This document shows positions 47,724-55,259 of a DNA stretch of 64,000 nt, in pieces. Source of the stretch: Haloprofundus halobius (GTDB lineage Archaea > Halobacteriota > Halobacteria > Halobacteriales > Haloferacaceae); the NCBI RefSeq assembly GCF_020097835.1, contig NZ_CP083666.1, forward strand, positions 1,240,001 to 1,304,000, in the 5' to 3' direction. The position numbers and the translations under genes were made by a program. The notes beneath the pieces are model-generated. The model made no database searches. It was not told where the DNA came from and saw only the letters and a list, made by a program, of their open reading frames with translations. How positions within the stretch are numbered: position 1 is the first letter of the stretch; every line of letters begins with the position of its first letter.

Positions 47724-47798
47724 GGGCGCTTAGCTCAGTCTGGACAGAGTGCTTGGCTTCGGACCAAGTTGCCGTGGGTTCAAATCCTGCAGCGCCCA
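47724..47798 (+). tRNA. tRNA-Arg (anticodon UCG)
   Basis: 75 bases folding as a clean cloverleaf: acceptor GGGCGCT/AGCGCCC plus discriminator A, D arm GCTC/GAGT, anticodon stem CTTGG/CCAAG around loop CTTCGGA (anticodon TCG at 34-36), and T arm GTGGG/CCTGC around TTCAAAT. No intron and no encoded CCA, as usual in archaea. Its 3' end (CCTGCAGCGCCCAT) is repeated downstream at 47907, 50784 and 55085 and, weakly, at 61270, so it appears to be the attachment site of the cassettes that follow. Confidence 0.93.
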
Positions 47799-47906
47799 TG
47801 TTTTCCGACGAACGAAGTGAGGAGTGAAAACTGGACCGCGAAGGATTTGAACGAGACGAGACGCAGCGCGAACGGAGTGAGCGACCGTCTCGGCGTAGTC
47901 CACACT

Positions 47907-48164: not shown

Positions 48165-48797
48165 CTACTCCATCGATGGCCCTTCCATGAATTCCTTCAT
48201 TATCGCACCTTCGGCCCTGTGAAGAATGCCGCTCGCCGTCGCCTTGTTGACGCCTAGCGCATCCGCGACATCGGTGAGCGAACAACGACGTGGGGTGTCG
48301 TAGTAGCCGCGTTCGAGAGCTTCGGTCACGAACTCTCGCTGGCGCTCGGTGAGCAACTCTGTCGGGTCCTGCGACTGGGTCACGGAGAGAAGTTCATACT
48401 TCACGCCCACCGCCTCAAGTTGTTCTCTGAACGCCGTGAGACGGTCATGAGTGGTGATGGACTCAGCGAGAATCCATCCGTCCCGAAGCACGAGCGGATA
48501 TGGGGGCGGGTTGTTAGATTCCTGTCCGGCCCGTCCTGCTGCTGGCTCCGATTCCTGAAGGAACTGGATTACTGCCTTCCGGTCGTCGGTGTGAAGTACC
48601 TCGTGCGTGAGTACGTCCGAATCTCCCTCCAAGAAGTTGGCGGCTCTCTCCGGGTCGAGTTCTTCAATCTCCACGAGCGTCATGTGCCCTGCATCCGTCG
48701 AGAGGGACGTCAGGATACGGAACGTGGCATCCGGGTGTGCTTTCGACAATTCGGCGAGACTCCCAGACGCTTCGACCTTCATTCGAACCTTCGGCAT
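48165..48797 (-). CDS. Bacterioopsin-activator-type (HTH_10) transcription regulator
   Basis: 210 residues from the ATG at 48797. The N-terminal 140 residues are a sensor-like alpha/beta domain (MTLVEIEELDPERAANFLEG, YPLVLRDGWILAESITTHDR). The C-terminal HTH reads TELLTERQREFVTEALERGY, then RRCSLTDVADALGVNKATAS and GILHRAEGAIMKEFM, typical of Bat-type regulators. A perfect 20-base palindrome lies 34-53 bases before its start, and the same core precedes the neighbouring copper-protein and membrane-protein genes, so it probably controls itself and them. The signal may be redox or copper; this is inference. Confidence 0.83.
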   Translation of the reverse strand: MPKVRMKVEASGSLAELSKAHPDATFRILTSLSTDAGHMTLVEIEELDPERAANFLEGDSDVLTHEVLHTDDRKAVIQFLQESEPAAGRAGQESNNPPPYPLVLRDGWILAESITTHDRLTAFREQLEAVGVKYELLSVTQSQDPTELLTERQREFVTEALERGYYDTPRRCSLTDVADALGVNKATASGILHRAEGAIMKEFMEGPSME

Positions 48798-48830
48798 ACT
48801 GTACGAGAGGTCGGCCACCTATTCAGCGAT

Positions 48831-48850
48831 AACGCAAACATGTTTGCGTT
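48831..48850. promoter_or_regulatory. Perfect 20-bp palindrome, operator of the cassette 1 regulator
   Basis: AACGCAAACATGTTTGCGTT, identical to its own reverse complement. It sits between the end of the membrane protein gene and the regulator start at 48797, where a promoter would be. Shorter forms of its core recur at 50288 and 50372. Confidence 0.75.
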
Positions 48851-48877
48851 TGTCGAGTACGTGGAGTTCAACTCCGG

Positions 48878-49675
48878 TTAGTCGGAGCTGTCCGCACCCT
48901 TCCGGTGGCTCACCTCTCCAGCGGCGACGAACCCGGTAGCCCAGAGCATGGCGAGTCCACCCCAGATGGGGCCTACACTCGACGCGAGGGCGGGATGTAG
49001 GACGGACGTGGCCCCGAAGACGCCCACGAGTCCCGCGGTGCTCCAGAGCGGGATCCGCCAGCCGACAGGTTTCACGCTAGCCAGCAACCCGAGCAGCAGG
49101 ACGAGGAGAGAATACGTGACCATGTCCGCGTAGTGGCCGAGCTGGGCGTGGACATCGCCCGACGCTTGAAGGGCGTATTGATCCGCTGCGTAGACAGTAA
49201 GCGGAATCGCCGCGAGGACGACGAGTCCGACGAGAACGTGGCTGACCGAGCCCGTCGTCCGAACGCGGAGGACGTCCCGACCGGCAGGGTGGAGTGCAAA
49301 GGCAGCCAGCAGTAAGCCGCCTAGGAGCAGCGCTGGCGGGAAGAAGAATCCCGTTAGCACGTTCGCTCCCGTGATCACGACGTTGACGAGCAGAGCTTGT
49401 TGGATCCCCGCAACCCGTCGCTCGGGTTCGTAGAGTTGCACGAGGAGTCCGGCAACGACCGTCCAGAGCATCGTGACGAGCGCGAGGTCGTGGAGGTGGT
49501 GGACGGCCGGCACGCTGACGATCCAGGCCGTAAAGAGGAACGTGAGCGTGTCACCGAGGAATACCACCATGAGGGCGAGAAGCGCCACCACAGTCACGTA
49601 AAACGCGACGAGCCGGAGGCCCCCAGCTTGTCGAAGCAGCGCCGTTGGGTATTGCAGGCCAGTATCAGCGGTCAT
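48878..49675 (-). CDS. Seven-helix membrane protein, partner of the halocyanin
   Basis: 265 residues with about seven membrane helices, among them RLVAFYVTVVALLALMVVFL, FLFTAWIVSVPAVHHLHDLA and VSHVLVGLVVLAAIPLTVYA. Several His lie near helix ends (PAVHHLHDL, VHAQLGHYADM), which may bind haem or copper. The gene starts five bases after the stop of the copper protein on the same strand, so the pair is co-transcribed and probably forms one electron-transfer or copper-handling unit at the membrane. No named family recognised. Confidence 0.75.
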   Translation of the reverse strand: MTADTGLQYPTALLRQAGGLRLVAFYVTVVALLALMVVFLGDTLTFLFTAWIVSVPAVHHLHDLALVTMLWTVVAGLLVQLYEPERRVAGIQQALLVNVVITGANVLTGFFFPPALLLGGLLLAAFALHPAGRDVLRVRTTGSVSHVLVGLVVLAAIPLTVYAADQYALQASGDVHAQLGHYADMVTYSLLVLLLGLLASVKPVGWRIPLWSTAGLVGVFGATSVLHPALASSVGPIWGGLAMLWATGFVAAGEVSHRKGADSSD

Positions 49676-49680
49676 TATCT

Positions 49681-50154
49681 CTACGCACCTCTCTGCCCGA
49701 ATTCTGCCGTCGGTTCGACGGTGATGGTGCCGGTCATTCCAGCCTGCTCGTGCGGGATGCAGTAGTACGTGTACGTTCCGGGCTTGTCGAACGTGTACGT
49801 GTACTCTTCGCCGCGGTCGAGGACACCGCCACCCCCGGATGCGCCATCTCGGGCGGCAGCCTCGTTCGTGAAGCCGCCACTGCTGAAGTACGCTGCTCCT
49901 GGTGGGAGCTCGTCCTCGTAAGCGGTCACCGTATGCGGAGCGTAGCCTACGGTCCGCCAGACGACCGTTTCGCCCACGGGAATCGTGACCGCGTCCGGTT
50001 CGAATCGGTTGTCGTCGGTCATCTCGACGAGTGTCCCATCTACGTCCCCGGGCGACTCTCCCGATGCGCCCAGGCCGATGCATCCTGACAGTGAGAGGCT
50101 AAAACCGAGCGTCGTCCCTACGCCCAGACCACGGAGGACCGACCGCCGGTTCAC
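49681..50154 (-). CDS. Halocyanin-like blue copper lipoprotein
   Basis: 157 residues from a GTG at 50154 (MNRRSVLRGLGVG); an in-frame GTG at 50163 and ATG at 50250 are alternatives. The twin-arginine signal ends in a lipobox (LSLSGCIGLG), so the protein is an exported lipoprotein. The cupredoxin domain carries the type 1 copper ligands: His in GYAPHTVTAY and Cys, His, Met in TYYCIPHEQAGMTGTI. It carries electrons outside the membrane. The loop DGASGGGGVLDRGEEYTYT lies between. First gene of the pair with the seven-helix protein. Confidence 0.87.
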   Translation of the reverse strand: MNRRSVLRGLGVGTTLGFSLSLSGCIGLGASGESPGDVDGTLVEMTDDNRFEPDAVTIPVGETVVWRTVGYAPHTVTAYEDELPPGAAYFSSGGFTNEAAARDGASGGGGVLDRGEEYTYTFDKPGTYTYYCIPHEQAGMTGTITVEPTAEFGQRGA

Positions 50155-50287
50155 CAGCCACACCCCCGAGAACGTTGTTTGTCCGTTCCACGAGCGGCGG
50201 GGCGGTGGACGTCTGTGCTGGCACTTGCTGGACCGCGTATTTCGCGCCATATCCAGTTGGAAGCGCCTTTGCGCCGTGGCGATTTGC

Positions 50288-50301
50288 GCCAACATGTTTG
50301 C
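50288..50301. promoter_or_regulatory. Operator-like site upstream of the halocyanin gene
   Basis: GCCAACATGTTTGC shares AACATGTTTGC with the palindrome at 48831, with one arm degenerate. It lies about 135 bases before the GTG chosen for the copper protein and about 40 bases before the alternative ATG at 50250, which slightly favours a transcript start near 50250. Confidence 0.55.
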
Positions 50302-50371
50302 ATCCTCACGGCGGCTCAAGCGTTGTTACTTGATGTGGAACATTCAGTCACGATACGGGTAGTCTGAAGTG

Positions 50372-50387
50372 GGCAACATGTTTGCGA
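50372..50387. promoter_or_regulatory. Operator-like site upstream of the small membrane protein
   Basis: GGCAACATGTTTGCGA, a third copy of the AACATGTTTGC core, 11-26 bases before the ATG at 50398 on the other strand. It would overlap the transcription start of that gene. Confidence 0.55.
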
Positions 50388-50397
50388 GAATTGCCAT

Positions 50398-50697
50398 ATG
50401 ACCACGCCACAACGTATGAACTGGAGACTTATGACCGACGAAACTACGACTGAAACCGTTGTACAGACTCCTCAATGGCGGAAAACGTTCGGCGTCAACT
50501 GGACCCGAGTCGAGGGAGTACTCGGCGTCGGCGCGCTGCTCACCTCGTTCATCTGGTTCCTGGGGATGCCGACTGGCATGGCAATCGGCGTCGGATTCGG
50601 GATCGTTCTCGTTCTGGACGTCGTCCGAGCACTGATCTTCAACTCCTCCCGACGCGATCGCTCCGAATTCGGTACGTCAGAATCCGCTAGGCAATAA
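50398..50697 (+). CDS. Small two-helix membrane protein of cassette 1
   Basis: 99 residues. Soluble N terminus (TDETTTETVVQTPQWRKTFG), then VEGVLGVGALLTSFIWFLGM and GMAIGVGFGIVLVLDVVRAL as membrane helices, and a Ser/Arg-rich tail. An internal ATG at 50416 or 50431 may be the true start. It diverges from the copper-protein operon across 243 bases that carry two of the cassette operators. Function unknown. Confidence 0.65.
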   Translation: MTTPQRMNWRLMTDETTTETVVQTPQWRKTFGVNWTRVEGVLGVGALLTSFIWFLGMPTGMAIGVGFGIVLVLDVVRALIFNSSRRDRSEFGTSESARQ

Positions 50698-50957: not shown

Positions 50958-51088
50958 CCATCTCGATGACACCATCGGATTCAGTTGAGATGAACACGAC
51001 GATTAGTAAAGGCACTTCAGTAAGGGAATCGCGTGTTTTCCCTATCGTTTACAGGGTCCATAGTATTGGCCGAAACTCGCTGCGTAGT

Positions 51089-52060
51089 TTACTCTGTTAC
51101 CCTCGATAGCGATCGGATCCAGTTCGGAACATACCCGAACGTGGTCCACGTACCGTTCCTGCGGGTGATAACCCGTCCTTCGGTCGTTCCCGCGAGAACG
51201 CGTTCGTCAGCCGCCGCCCATGCGTAAACGAACTCGTCCGGTGCGCCGGGATACGGCTTGGTCTCGAACGAGTCTCCGCCGTCTGTCGATTCGAACAATG
51301 ACGCGTTCACGTCTCGCGTTCTATAACTCGCACCTATCGGAAGGGTCGGTGGAAGCGTTTGCGCGGCGGCGTACAACGTACCCTGATGGGAAAACGCCGC
51401 TTGGAAGTACGGACCAGGCAAATCCGTATCGATTCGCGTCCATGAATGCCCGGCGTTAGTGGTTCGGTAGAGTCCACCGCCGCACGAGACGACGTATTCG
51501 TCGGCGGTTACCACCAACACGTGGTGAACATCGTATTGGAGGTTGTCCCCGCGTTCAGTCTCAAGACCCTCGCGTCGTTCGGTCCACGTCTTACCATTAT
51601 CATCGCTAACGTGAACGCCGCCGACTTCGACACCAGCAACTACCCGGTCGGGTGCATCCGCGTGTACACCGAGGCTCCGGACGTGTGACTTCTCCCGATG
51701 ACGAGGAGTGTGCCATTGGTCGCGGGAGGGAAGCTTCTGGAATCCCTTCAGTTCCGTCCATGTCCTGCCTTTGTCAGTCGAGACGTACATGTGAGCTGGA
51801 TGCGTGCCCGCGTACAGCCGGCTGCCGTCGGGACTGACTGCAACCGCGTACACCCCCTCTTGTGGCACGCCAAGTCGGTTCCATGTCGTGCCTTGATCGA
51901 CCGAGCGGTAGAGGCCAGTTTTCGACGCGGCGAACGACCCATGTTCCTTGAACGTATGAACGCCGAGCGTCACTCCCGAGTCAAGTACTCGTTCGACATC
52001 GTCGAGCTCACCGCTCCGGGAGCGATAGACGCCATCCTGCGTCCCGATCAATAATGTCAT
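51089..52060 (-). CDS. Asp-box (BNR) beta-propeller protein
   Basis: 323 residues, a sialidase-like or WD40-like propeller without a signal peptide. At least five Asp-box repeats are seen: SVDQGTTWNRL near 53, STDKGRTWTEL near 89, SDDNGKTWTER near 151, TTNAGHSWTRI near 202 and STDGGDSFETK near 264. Such proteins are often annotated as exo-alpha-sialidase or photosystem-assembly-like, but the catalytic Arg triad and Tyr/Glu of sialidases are not evident. Probably a binding scaffold. The next upstream gene on the same strand, nine bases away, is the flavin reductase. Confidence 0.8.
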   Translation of the reverse strand: MTLLIGTQDGVYRSRSGELDDVERVLDSGVTLGVHTFKEHGSFAASKTGLYRSVDQGTTWNRLGVPQEGVYAVAVSPDGSRLYAGTHPAHMYVSTDKGRTWTELKGFQKLPSRDQWHTPRHREKSHVRSLGVHADAPDRVVAGVEVGGVHVSDDNGKTWTERREGLETERGDNLQYDVHHVLVVTADEYVVSCGGGLYRTTNAGHSWTRIDTDLPGPYFQAAFSHQGTLYAAAQTLPPTLPIGASYRTRDVNASLFESTDGGDSFETKPYPGAPDEFVYAWAAADERVLAGTTEGRVITRRNGTWTTFGYVPNWIRSLSRVTE

Positions 52061-52069
52061 GAGGTTCCA

Positions 52070-52672
52070 TTACACCTCCTGAAGCTGCGCCGCTTGGATT
52101 TCGACCGGTTCGATCGCTGCGTACTCGACAGCGCGTACGCCGAGCGTCTGAACACGCTCTCGGAGGTTTTCGTCGGTGAATCCGTTTTCGTCGAACGCGG
52201 TACGCGTCTGCGGAACTGCCGCCTGATACGGAAGGACCCAGGCGTTCAGCGATCGACAGACGTCGCGGAGGTGAGTGAGCGCCAGCGTGGGAAACGGCCC
52301 GCCCGAAGCGACGAGGAGCCCGACGGTTGTATCCTCAAACTCGTCGAATCCGCAGTAATCGAGCGCGTTCTTCAACACGCCCGAATACGACCCGTGGTAC
52401 AGGGGCGTTCCGAGGATGACCGCATCGGCCTCACGGACTGTCCGCCGCACCACGACGCCGTCTCCTTCCCCATCGACGTCGGGATCGAGCGGCGGAAGAT
52501 CTACCTCTGCGAGGTCGAGCAACTCGGTTGTGCCGCCAGCTGCTTCGACGCCGACTAGCGTCTCCTGGAGCGCTCGTCGGGTGCAACTCCCTTCGCGTCG
52601 GCTCCCGCATACTGCGACGACGTGTGGCCGTGCCCCTTTCGATGATCGACCGGCGCGTCCGAGAGAGCTCAT
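52070..52672 (-). CDS. NADPH-dependent FMN reductase family flavoprotein
   Basis: 200-residue flavodoxin-like reductase. Seen: VVAVCGSRREGSCTRRALQE near residues 18-37 (FMN phosphate loop), VILGTPLYHGSYSGVLKNAL near 85-104 and LLVASGGPFPTLALTHLRDV near 119-138. It reduces FMN, quinones or metals with NAD(P)H. Its ATG overlaps the stop of the upstream DUF6069-like gene by four bases, so the pair is translated together. Partner of the divergent HxlR regulator by position; HxlR regulators commonly control such reductases. Confidence 0.85.
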   Translation of the reverse strand: MSSLGRAGRSSKGARPHVVAVCGSRREGSCTRRALQETLVGVEAAGGTTELLDLAEVDLPPLDPDVDGEGDGVVVRRTVREADAVILGTPLYHGSYSGVLKNALDYCGFDEFEDTTVGLLVASGGPFPTLALTHLRDVCRSLNAWVLPYQAAVPQTRTAFDENGFTDENLRERVQTLGVRAVEYAAIEPVEIQAAQLQEV

Positions 52673-53127
52673 CGGGGTTCGCCCTCCGGGTGCGTTGCTC
52701 GGGTCAGGACACCGACGAAGGTGACTGCGGCGGCCACGTGCATCACCCCGAGGATAGCGAAGATCCTCGGCGGAGCGCCGGCCAGGTCGGGCGCGAGGAA
52801 CATCGCAAAGGAGAGCATCAAGATCACCCCTGCGATAATGGTGAACGTCCGGTTCGGTCGGGCCGAGTATCGCGTGACCACTCCGTACGCGAGAGTCGCC
52901 CCGATAGCGGCAACGGCCGAATTAACGACGACCGGCCCCACCGCGAGTGGTCCGAACGGGCCCCCAACGAACTCGGACGGGAATTCGACGAGCGCTAGCC
53001 CGATGAACAGGACGAGGACGTTCACGATGCTCACGGCGAGCAGCGCTAAGAGGCCGTATTTTGCGAGTCGGGACGTGCCGACGGAACTGTTCGATTCTGA
53101 TTCATTCATAGCGATCGTGGATGCCAT
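52669..53127 (-). CDS. Four-helix membrane protein, DUF6069-like
   Basis: 152 residues from the ATG at 53127; an ATG at 53109 is possible. Helices: YGLLALLAVSIVNVLVLFIG, VGPVVVNSAVAAIGATLAYG, TIIAGVILMLSFAMFLAP and RIFAILGVMHVAAAVTFVGV. The layout is that of DUF6069 proteins. A TATA element at 53151-53158 favours 53127 as a leaderless start. It is the first gene of the operon with the flavin reductase. Function unknown. Confidence 0.75.
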   Translation of the reverse strand: MASTIAMNESESNSSVGTSRLAKYGLLALLAVSIVNVLVLFIGLALVEFPSEFVGGPFGPLAVGPVVVNSAVAAIGATLAYGVVTRYSARPNRTFTIIAGVILMLSFAMFLAPDLAGAPPRIFAILGVMHVAAAVTFVGVLTRATHPEGEPR

Positions 53128-53150
53128 ACCCAATAGTACAGTATCTGTAG

Positions 53151-53158
53151 TAATATAC
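53151..53158 (-). promoter_or_regulatory. TATA box of the DUF6069-like/reductase operon
   Basis: The minus strand reads GTATATTA, centred about 27 bases before the ATG at 53127. Confidence 0.55.
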
Positions 53159-53170
53159 TATCAGGTTAGA

Positions 53171-53236
53171 AGTTATGGAGTAACTCACCTGTTGCGTAGC
53201 TACTTCCAACCTTTGAAGAAACAAGTTATGTGACTT
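53171..53236. promoter_or_regulatory. Two related dyads between the HxlR gene and its divergent operon
   Basis: AGTTATGGAGTAACT (53171-53185, arms AGTTA/TAACT) and AAGTTATGTGACTT (53223-53236, arms AAGT/ACTT) share AGTTATG. A wider inverted repeat AGGTTAGAAGT..ACTTCCAACCT spans 53163-53213. They sit next to the two divergent promoters, as expected for HxlR operators. Confidence 0.55.
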
Positions 53237-53255
53237 CAGAAGGAATAGTCAGGCC

Positions 53256-53702
53256 ATGGTCGAACCACCGCAAGCCGAAGAATTTATGGAGGCGATTCTC
53301 TCCAACGAGACAGCGCGGCCGCCCGGGTCCGAACAGGCCAATAAAGACAATCGAACGATGTCCGAACTCCTCAACCTGCTGGGGAAGAAGCACACCATCG
53401 TGATCCTCCACCAGTTCGCAACTGGTGATGGGCCGTTGCGATTTAGCGACTTGGAGAAAGCCGTGGGTATCGCGCCGAATACGCTCTCGAATCGGCTCGA
53501 AGAACTCACAGCGGTCGGGTTGCTCACGCGGAAAGCGTACAACGAGATCCCGCCCCGCGTCGAGTACGACGCCACGGAGAAGGCAAGAGAGCTCGCACCG
53601 GTCTTCTGGTATCTCGGTGTCTGGACGGAGCGTCACGACCTCGAACCGAGAGCTACCGATGGCGAAGAAATAAGCGAACCTCAGAAGGGCGATCAGCAGT
53701 AA
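53256..53702 (+). CDS. HxlR-family transcription regulator
   Basis: 148-residue winged-helix regulator. The core reads SELLNLLGKKHTIVILHQFA, then PLRFSDLEKAVGIAPNTLSN and RLEELTAVGLLTRKAYNEIP, then RVEYDATEKARELAPVFWYL, the HxlR pattern. The ends are charged. HxlR proteins usually sense electrophiles or redox state and act as dimers. It diverges from the membrane/flavin reductase operon, with operator-like dyads between, so it probably controls both. Start ATG 53256. Confidence 0.87.
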   Translation: MVEPPQAEEFMEAILSNETARPPGSEQANKDNRTMSELLNLLGKKHTIVILHQFATGDGPLRFSDLEKAVGIAPNTLSNRLEELTAVGLLTRKAYNEIPPRVEYDATEKARELAPVFWYLGVWTERHDLEPRATDGEEISEPQKGDQQ

Positions 53703-53994
53703 CTCGCTGCGGTTCTTGATGTGTGATTTTCGGCTTCACTCCTCCAAGAACTTCCGGATTGACGCAGTTACTCGGTGTTGGGCCGGCGGGCTGTGTCATA
53801 GTTACTGACGATGAGGTCGCTATTTCACACGAGGAGTTCGAATGTCTGTGATTCTGAGAGACCCGAACTGTTGAATACAGAGGATAGATCCATCACCAGT
53901 AATCCGGTTACTCGCTCAGGTGGGATACACTGAGTCCGGAGCCAGTAACCGGTTTTAACTACCTAGAGATAGGGGATCCGGTTGGTGGCATCGT

Positions 53995-54804
53995 TTACGC
54001 TTTGAATGCGGTCGTTTGGAGATACTGATTCTCGACGATTGCGGTTCCATCAGTCGCGCGATTGTATCGACTCATGACGGTGTCGAGATCGTCTAAGAGG
54101 CTCTCTCGGTCGGCAGAATCGAGCTTCTCAAGTGCTCGGATCGTCGGGCCGAAGTACGTGCTGAACACCTCCACAGCATGGTCGATCGACCGATAGTACT
54201 GAAGTGCCGCTCGCTGGTTATTCTCGATCGATCGAACGCCGGGACCCAGTAGCTTCTCAACCCCCTCGTCTGTCCCCCAGCGAAGGGGTGACTGAACGCC
54301 AGGCGGTGGCGGCATGTACTTGGCATGCGTAGCAAACCAGTCGCCGCTCCATCCCTCGGGGATCGGCCCCGCCAGTCCGATCTTTCCCCCCGGTTTACAC
54401 ACCCGAAGCAACTCGCGTGCCGCCTGCACCTGATCGGGCGCGAACTGCACCCCGTATACGGAGAGAACCGCGTCGAAGCTATCGTCAGGAAACGGCATAT
54501 CCTGGGCATCGCCGACGCAGAAATCGATTGCTTGTCCATTGGCCTGTGCACGTGCCGTAGCACGGTTGATCAAGCCGGGGACGTAGTCGATACCTGTGAC
54601 GTCACAGTACCGTCGCTCCGCGATTAGGGCCGCCGTCCCGCTGCCACAGGCCACATCCAGCACCCGCTGCCCGGGGTGTGGATCGACCGCCTCGACGAGC
54701 GCCTCTGCCATGACCACGTTTTGGCGGGCGATCTCGTTGAAATCGCCAGTTGCCCACGTCTCCTTCTGGTTCTCCGTAATGCCAGTATAGTCTGTTTTGC
54801 TCAT
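53995..54804 (-). CDS. SAM-dependent methyltransferase
   Basis: 269 residues, class I methyltransferase of the UbiE/Methyltransf_11 type. Seen: GQRVLDVACGSGTAALIAER near residues 49-68 (SAM motif I), DVTGIDYVPGLINRATARAQ near 71-90, CVGDAQDMPFPDDSFDAVLS near 97-116 (motif II/III), and RELLRVCKPGGKIGLAGPIP near 129-148. ATG 54804 starts at MSKTDYTGITENQKETWATG; a long open frame upstream is not coding. The substrate is probably a small molecule, unknown. Confidence 0.86.
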   Translation of the reverse strand: MSKTDYTGITENQKETWATGDFNEIARQNVVMAEALVEAVDPHPGQRVLDVACGSGTAALIAERRYCDVTGIDYVPGLINRATARAQANGQAIDFCVGDAQDMPFPDDSFDAVLSVYGVQFAPDQVQAARELLRVCKPGGKIGLAGPIPEGWSGDWFATHAKYMPPPPGVQSPLRWGTDEGVEKLLGPGVRSIENNQRAALQYYRSIDHAVEVFSTYFGPTIRALEKLDSADRESLLDDLDTVMSRYNRATDGTAIVENQYLQTTAFKA

Positions 54805-55031
54805 GTTTTCTTCCCGACTTTCACGAGCGAGCTCGATCGTACGTCGTGATCCACCCACTCGTTCCCGCGAGTCGCCCACGCTACCAGAAGAAAATGTGAG
54901 AAGAGATATATGTGCTACACGATACCAAATACCATAACAGTACCGGATAGAGCGACCGGTATGCCCATATTTGGTGAGGGTGCTTCCGACGCCAACAATA
55001 GACAATGAGAGATACGCGCCATCTTGTGCGA
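54805..55031. other. Intergenic segment upstream of the methyltransferase
   Basis: About 225 bases without a gene, part of a 650-base gap that continues into repeat D. It includes AT-rich stretches (AGAGATATATGTGC near 54903) and the nested inverted repeat listed separately. No coding frame supported. Confidence 0.4.
54924..54975. repeat. Nested inverted repeat
   Basis: Outer arms ACCAAATA and TATTTGGT are perfect complements, 36 bases apart; inside them TACCGG and CCGGTA pair around a nine-base loop. The whole could fold as a stem with side bulges. It lies about 120 bases upstream of the methyltransferase start and may be an operator, a small structured RNA or the remains of an element end. 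Confidence 0.55.
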
Positions 55032-55259
55032 GAATTCGGACGCCTCATGTCTGAAAGGTCGATTCGTTCGATATCGAACCGGAGCCTACAGCGCCCCTAC
55101 ATTTGACGTGCTATGATCGTCCGATAGCTCGGTGATTTTTGATCTAACGGACATGATTTTGCTTTCGTTCGATTGGTCATCAGCCCAGTAGACATCACCG
55201 GAGTTCGCGCCCAGCCAAACAGGTCGCAACCTTGAAAATCAATCGCAGATTGAGGTACG
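55032..55259. repeat. Cassette-end repeat D
   Basis: The left part from GAATTCGGACGCCTCATGTC (55032) matches repeat C and, more weakly, 61203. The core at 55085-55098 is CCTACAGCGCCCCT, two changes from the tRNA end. The right part matches B and C, with ATCTAACG..CGTTCGAT as the first dyad (one mismatch) and ATCAATCGCAGATTGA as the second. It is the most diverged of the three full copies. The next 196 bases to 55455 hold no gene. Confidence 0.7.

Follow-up and report, generated by a model that had tools for sequence, protein, structure and literature searches.

A probable local regulon with a shared palindromic operator around a short HTH_10 regulator of Haloprofundus halobius

In haloarchaea, a MEME motif of the kind described here is present in the nar, nir, nor, and nos promoters; in Haloferax mediterranei, the motif occurs in 83 promoter regions, and mutating a related motif significantly lowers the activity of the nos and nor promoters (PMC10062603). 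The need for the motif at nirK is attributed to Hattori et al. 2016 (PMC5746218), and in 2024 the regulator binding the denitrification motif was described as undisclosed (PMC11218638). The latter source presents the short NarO/DmsR-like regulators as HTH_10 proteins without PAS and GAF domains, and Bat as a protein with PAS, GAF, and associated domains. These three publications are cited here and below from excerpts. In this work, we analyzed a four-gene cassette (positions 48165-50697) in a window, i.e., a stretch of 64,000 nucleotides of the Haloprofundus halobius genome (contig NZ_CP083666.1, positions 1,240,001 to 1,304,000). The cassette includes a short HTH_10 regulator, an operon with a halocyanin-type copper protein and a membrane protein, and a divergent small membrane gene, and a palindromic element is present in their promoters.

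The cassette is likely a local, autoregulated regulon, a reading that comparative evidence supports well. Most likely, it would work as a one-component switch that is local and autoregulated, probably acts by activation, and serves a redox electron-carrier module. The cassette palindrome is a variant of the haloarchaeal denitrification motif CGAA-N4-TTCG. Our literature searches, which most subscription journals lay outside the reach of, found no paper on the cassette itself.

Operator sites and their conservation

The regulator gene (48165..48797, minus strand; start from orthologs) encodes a 210 aa one-component protein matching HTH_10 (PF04967; E 7.8e-18, 64.5 bits against a cut-off of 23.1). 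Its start is most likely the ATG at 48797 and not the GTG at 48818, because the extension has a stop codon in both orthologs with 81% identity. Between the regulator and the membrane gene, 33 nt upstream of this ATG, operator 1 (48831..48850, minus strand) is a perfect 20-bp palindrome, AACGCAAACATGTTTGCGTT, unique in the window even with up to 3 mismatches allowed (0 expected). Operator 2 (50288..50301, minus strand), with the 11-mer AACATGTTTGC at 50291-50301, lies in the promoter of the halocyanin-membrane protein operon and is kept in Halegenticoccus; operator 3 (50372..50385, plus strand), with AACATGTTTGC at 50375-50385, lies in that of the small membrane gene and is kept in Halegenticoccus and Natronococcus.

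An earlier sequence-only reading of the window had reported the perfect 20-bp palindrome before the regulator and a core recurring at 50288 and 50372, three occurrences in all and each at a cassette promoter. These sites are all where that reading placed them, and the genome-wide scan finds the core nowhere else. Indeed, AACATGTTTGC has 4 matches in the 3,947,132 bases of the genome, all in the cassette (the two halves of the palindrome and the two other sites), and its reversed control pattern has 0 matches genome-wide. Among 167 family genomes, AACATGTTTGC occurs 39 times, in 28 genomes: 9 times in the 3 genomes bearing the cassette and 30 times in the 164 cassette-free ones (~0.18 per genome, spread over 25 genomes). 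A looser 14-mer with 3 mismatches was found 3 times against 0.74 expected, which is not striking alone. On the basis of the counts genome-wide and across the relatives, chance was ruled out as the source of the sites.

Seven genomes have the regulator-operator pair; they span at least five genera and more than one family, and their 17 operator sites are all at cassette promoters. The genes adjoining the conserved pair vary: a halocyanin with a membrane protein, a small membrane protein, a multicopper oxidase, or an SgcJ/EcaC-like protein. The four-gene order recurs in Halegenticoccus tardaugens and Halegenticoccus soli, with identities of 81% for the regulator, 80% for the membrane protein, and 65-66% and 62-65% for the remaining two genes. 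A regional alignment of the three species showed that all three operator cores are kept in both Halegenticoccus species, operator 1 having one change in the two. In Natronococcus sp. CG52 and AD-5, the regulator (60-61% identical) is divergent from the small membrane gene, without an adjacent halocyanin or large membrane gene, and a site is found both at the regulator promoter and at that of the small membrane gene, which in CG52 is followed by an FAD_binding_3 (flavin monooxygenase-like) gene. In Haladaptatus pallidirubidus, copies of the exact 13-mer lie ahead of an SgcJ/EcaC-like gene and of an operon in which the regulator is accompanied by two multicopper oxidase genes and a DUF7475-like gene, whose match is below the Pfam cut-off. 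The Halobacteriales archaeon YIM A00010 (regulator 50% identical) has sites before the regulator and before an SgcJ/EcaC-like gene. The exact matches outside the cassettes in YIM A00010 (two) and H. tardaugens (one) look like coding sequence by eye. The constant part is thus the regulator with its operator; the small membrane protein usually accompanies them, and copper proteins, although frequent, can be exchanged.

Instead of operators, the palindromes could also be hairpins, repeat-family remnants, or mobile-element ends that were carried along with the cassette, since the cassette adjoins a tRNA-Arg gene and sits between degenerate direct repeats. We consider this very improbable: the flanking repeats differ in sequence from the palindromes, the promoter positions were kept while the DNA around two of the palindromes diverged, and palindromes stand at the promoters of unrelated target genes elsewhere.

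When the 17 sites are oriented by transcription, TGTTTGCG is common to the promoter-proximal half, each of its columns having the consensus base in at least 15 sites, whereas the distal half is variable in its outer bases. An AA[C/T] element follows at a fixed spacing, about 11 bases downstream of the site center (A in 14/17, A in 14/17, and C/T in 17/17). At the regulator gene, the operator center is 43 nt before the ATG. Haloarchaeal transcripts commonly have short leaders or none; with this distance from site to start, the operator would thus lie just upstream of the presumed transcription factor B recognition element (BRE) and TATA box, which is a usual position for an archaeal activator. 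This position and the behavior of the related denitrification motif make activation by the regulator more likely than repression. The target of the 210-aa HTH_10 protein, which presumably dimerizes to bind, would be a palindrome of 14-20 bp with half-site TGTTTGC[G]. It lies just upstream of the presumed BRE/TATA at three promoters, namely those of the regulator gene itself, the halocyanin-membrane protein operon, and the divergently transcribed small membrane gene.

Family operator and covariation with the recognition helix

Among 81 distinct related HTH_10 regulators from the loci gathered, 44 have a palindrome of the AACATGTT type in the interval from -66 to -36 relative to their own start codon; shuffling the upstream regions of the 81 left 0.29 palindromes on average and never more than 2. 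Taking one representative per 60% identity cluster, the palindrome was present in 14/28 (shuffles: mean 0.16, maximum 3). The common form of the family operator, CGAACATGTTCG, corresponds to the published denitrification motif. A canonical NarO regulon was considered and rejected for this genome: none of its 17 AACATGTT cores has the full CGAACATGTTCG context, and NirK (Cu nitrite reductase) is absent from the genome. The cassette proteins have no match to a denitrification family above the Pfam or NCBIfam cut-offs.

Then, we compared the recognition helix with the operator. Under the rule, a G at operator position 6 goes with Thr as the Thr187-aligned residue, and an A goes with Ala, Val, or Gly; it was derived from 42 cases and fixed in writing before further loci were gathered. 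The 59 new loci comprised 4 duplicate proteins and 55 new ones. Of the latter, 29 lacked a site, the helix was unreadable in 2, and 1 was ambiguous; the other 23 agreed, with no disagreement. These 23 held-out cases were all of Thr type, and only the Thr half of the rule was probed there. Among 18 plasmid loci, 10 had no site and 6 agreed at once (4 Thr, 2 non-Thr); two more (Ala; position 6 A) agree, their helices having been read by eye after the operators were seen. Pooled (n=77), there are 54 Thr/G, 21 non-Thr/A, and 2 ambiguous cases, so that 75/75 scorable pairs agree. The Natronococcus and Haladaptatus pallidirubidus orthologs stand outside this count, the first upstream scan having found no site by the symmetric criterion.

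On a helix-masked tree, quickly built and with weak inner support, 5 changes are required for each trait, and supported branches force at least 2 of these. In five sets of 20,000 random histories (100,000), the best agreement was 72/75. Since the helix residue tracks operator position 6, direct binding is suggested, and we regard this covariation as strong but not final evidence. Residue 186 showed only a trend with operator position 5.

The sites could instead be bound by a paralogous HTH_10 regulator, for example an oxygen-responsive NarO-like protein, the local regulator being one of its targets. The genome does encode other HTH_10 relatives, among them a 42% identical paralog (C1:3071873), and the core is family-wide. 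However, this paralog has a different palindrome of its own, GTGAATATATTCAC; the cassette operator accompanies the orthologous regulator from genus to genus, and its position 6 follows the helix residue of that regulator. Binding by a paralog thus appears quite unlikely. As a side observation, GTGAATATATTCAC precedes the own gene in a paralog clade that includes the one in this genome (L047), L052, L053, L056, and L273, and several clade members adjoin a DoxX-like gene, identified as DoxX by annotation in L273 and by sequence clustering in the others.

We favor the local regulator as the binder, and the earlier proposal of a small self-contained regulon with a shared operator is borne out by sites that are confined to the cassette, conserved alongside the regulator, and covarying with its recognition helix. 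Beyond this locus, we lean slightly toward a broader picture, in which haloarchaea would have many paralogous short HTH_10 switches that share the core AACATGTT and are separated by the outer bases, with the Thr187-aligned residue as specificity switch. Jointly with it and with the same slight preference, Thr would read G at operator position 6 and Ala, Gly, or Val would read A; the cassette would be an insulated circuit (Thr, TGC half-site), and the 42% paralog would read another operator (Ala, CAC half-site).

Several points weigh against a self-contained, autoregulated cassette. The halocyanin site in the window has one mismatch in its promoter-proximal half, and both AD-5 sites are degenerate. 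In Haladaptatus pallidirubidus, 2/4 exact genome matches are on another contig beside two paralogous regulators: at C6:107940 and 108876, AACATGTTTGC is exact between HTH_10 paralogs (36% and 39% identical), near small genes, possibly reflecting cross-talk or a related circuit. Self-binding is not universal, because 37/81 related regulators have no such site. The independent changes behind the covariation are few, since supported branches account for 2 and the best tree for 5, and the pair sign test (p 0.5), having 2 pairs, cannot reach significance. Finally, binding, dimerization, direction of control, and signal are all inferred here.

Regulator fold, signal, and cassette genes

The regulator had been called "Bat-type", which is a loose label: the HTH_10 domain is present, but no PAS, GAF, or BAT (PF15915) Pfam match was found at E up to 0.1. 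A Haloferax denitrificans relative has a weak BAT match (21.0 bits against a cut-off of 25.8). With HTH_10 and without PAS and GAF domains, the protein corresponds to the definition of the short NarO/DmsR-like regulators, and because PAS, GAF, and BAT matches are all lacking, we group it with these and not with Bat sensu stricto. Its AlphaFold2 model (28 sequences) has a predicted local distance difference test (pLDDT) score of 88.8 and consists of two N-terminal beta-alpha-beta-beta-alpha-beta (ferredoxin-like) repeats and a C-terminal helix-turn-helix (HTH). Foldseek gave no row below E 0.001 for this fold. For the N-terminal half, Thermoplasma Ta1207 (5m86; VIA-align Z 9.3, root-mean-square deviation 3.5, 136 aligned) is the one structural match of note, and it indicates no ligand. 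The ferredoxin-like repeats presumably read the signal.

A copper or redox response, as suggested earlier, is plausible. In its copper form, the regulator would be a copper-responsive repressor or activator, and the halocyanin and the His-rich membrane protein parts of copper trafficking. Copper proteins do recur: a halocyanin is present in 3 genomes, multicopper oxidase genes are part of the Haladaptatus pallidirubidus operon, and a DsbD_2-like gene and a Cu P-type ATPase stand beside the AD-5 copy. On the other hand, the sole regulator cysteine, C172, is a serine in Halegenticoccus, and we saw no conserved cysteine or obvious metal motif in the regulator; the CG52 cassette has the flavin monooxygenase-like gene in place of a copper protein, and within the AD-5 stretch that was scanned, the ATPase genes have no operator ahead of them. 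A copper response drawn from such recurring targets and neighbors is therefore unproven, and we consider it rather unlikely. A redox or respiratory cue is our best guess, held with low confidence and favored over copper as such because the neighbors of the relatives point to electron transfer (NosZ/NirK with halocyanins, high-potential iron-sulfur proteins, DoxX), and because the targets would be an exported copper electron carrier and membrane partners.

The exported cupredoxin of halocyanin/plastocyanin type (49681..50154, minus strand) matches the plastocyanin/azurin family domain (PF00127; E 6.6e-17, 62.2 bits against a cut-off of 21.2); it scores 61 bits with plastocyanin TIGR02656, under the cut-off, and 40.8 bits with halocyanin TIGR03102, below the cut-off of 93.8. 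Its leader, read by eye, resembles that of a twin-arginine lipoprotein (NRRSVLRG...LSGC). Judged from orthologs, its start is most likely the GTG at 50154, and that of the small membrane gene the ATG at 50431. Between operator 2 and the halocyanin start (window 50154-50250 and L049:9138-9250), we noted by eye a conserved ATGGCGCGAA..ACGCG-like stretch; the short frame that begins with it in H. soli stops where the halocyanin starts and is possibly a leader open reading frame.

Downstream of the halocyanin gene, the polytopic membrane protein (265 aa; 48878..49675, minus strand; 80% orthologs in the same cassette type) has no Pfam, NCBIfam, or PDB sequence match, and the 14 members of its family have stray weak Pfam matches only. 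Five histidines (His59, His62, His129, His176, and His181) are invariant across the 14 aligned members, which suggests heme or metal binding. Its AlphaFold2 model (3 sequences; pLDDT 41.5) is too poor for use. Relatives are present in 22/170 family genomes, its own counted and many in one genus, and in the genome stretches inspected no window-like halocyanin was found near those outside the cassette. The small membrane protein (88 aa; 50431..50697, plus strand; start from orthologs) is present in 3/391 class genomes, the same three holding the regulator at E<1e-75, and was seen only where a regulator ortholog occurs.

The tRNA-Arg(TCG) gene at 47724-47798 is followed by three degenerate ~190 nt repeat copies, at 47896, 50773, and 55074, which include a piece resembling the tRNA 3' end, CTGCAGCGCCCATACAT, and bound this cassette and the next one (50960-55070). 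The whole looks like a tRNA-anchored tandem island.

Comparison with the known systems

The cassette is a variant of a known regulatory kind, to which it adds a testable specificity rule. The presence of a denitrification-type motif before the own genes of short HTH_10 regulators (44/81), together with the helix-operator covariation, makes the question of which regulator binds that motif directly testable and offers a way to predict regulator-promoter pairs. With three promoters, one regulator, and no other exact AACATGTTTGC in the genome, the cassette is a compact test case.

As in the NarO/Haloferax motif system, a short HTH_10 regulator is associated with an AAcATgTT core close upstream of promoters, and the targets include blue copper proteins (PMC10062603, PMC11218638, PMC5746218). 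The core is common, but the outer operator bases differ (GCAAACATGTTTGC in the cassette versus CGAACATGTTCG), and the window sites carry CAAACATGTTTG and variants where the NarO/DmsR-like operator has CGAAYATDKTYG. Unlike the 83 motif-bearing promoter regions of H. mediterranei (PMC10062603), the cassette regulon is confined to one locus. The N-terminal sensor of NarO contains cysteine, whereas the cassette regulator has no conserved cysteine, nor does the cassette hold denitrification genes. Bat of Halobacterium has a C-terminal HTH_10 family domain as well, but its PAS, GAF, and associated domains (PMC11218638) are unmatched in the cassette regulator.

In Halolamina rubra (L150) and Haloferax denitrificans (L157), an HTH_10 family regulator is next to a halocyanin. 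The Halolamina halocyanin shows 47-51% identity over its aligned part, and the L150 regulator has a CCGAACATGTTCGG palindrome; however, the regulators of these two species are only 33-43% identical and are linked to nosZ/nirK (nitrous-oxide/nitrite reductase) genes. The plasmid relatives of Haladaptatus and Halocatena (L260, L261, L263, and L265) have a divergent exported electron-transfer gene and a 45-48% identical regulator that is preceded by a AACATGTT-type palindrome whose outer bases are CG, but their carrier is a high-potential iron-sulfur protein, not a copper one, and their half-sites are CGAG, CGTA, CGCA, and similar.

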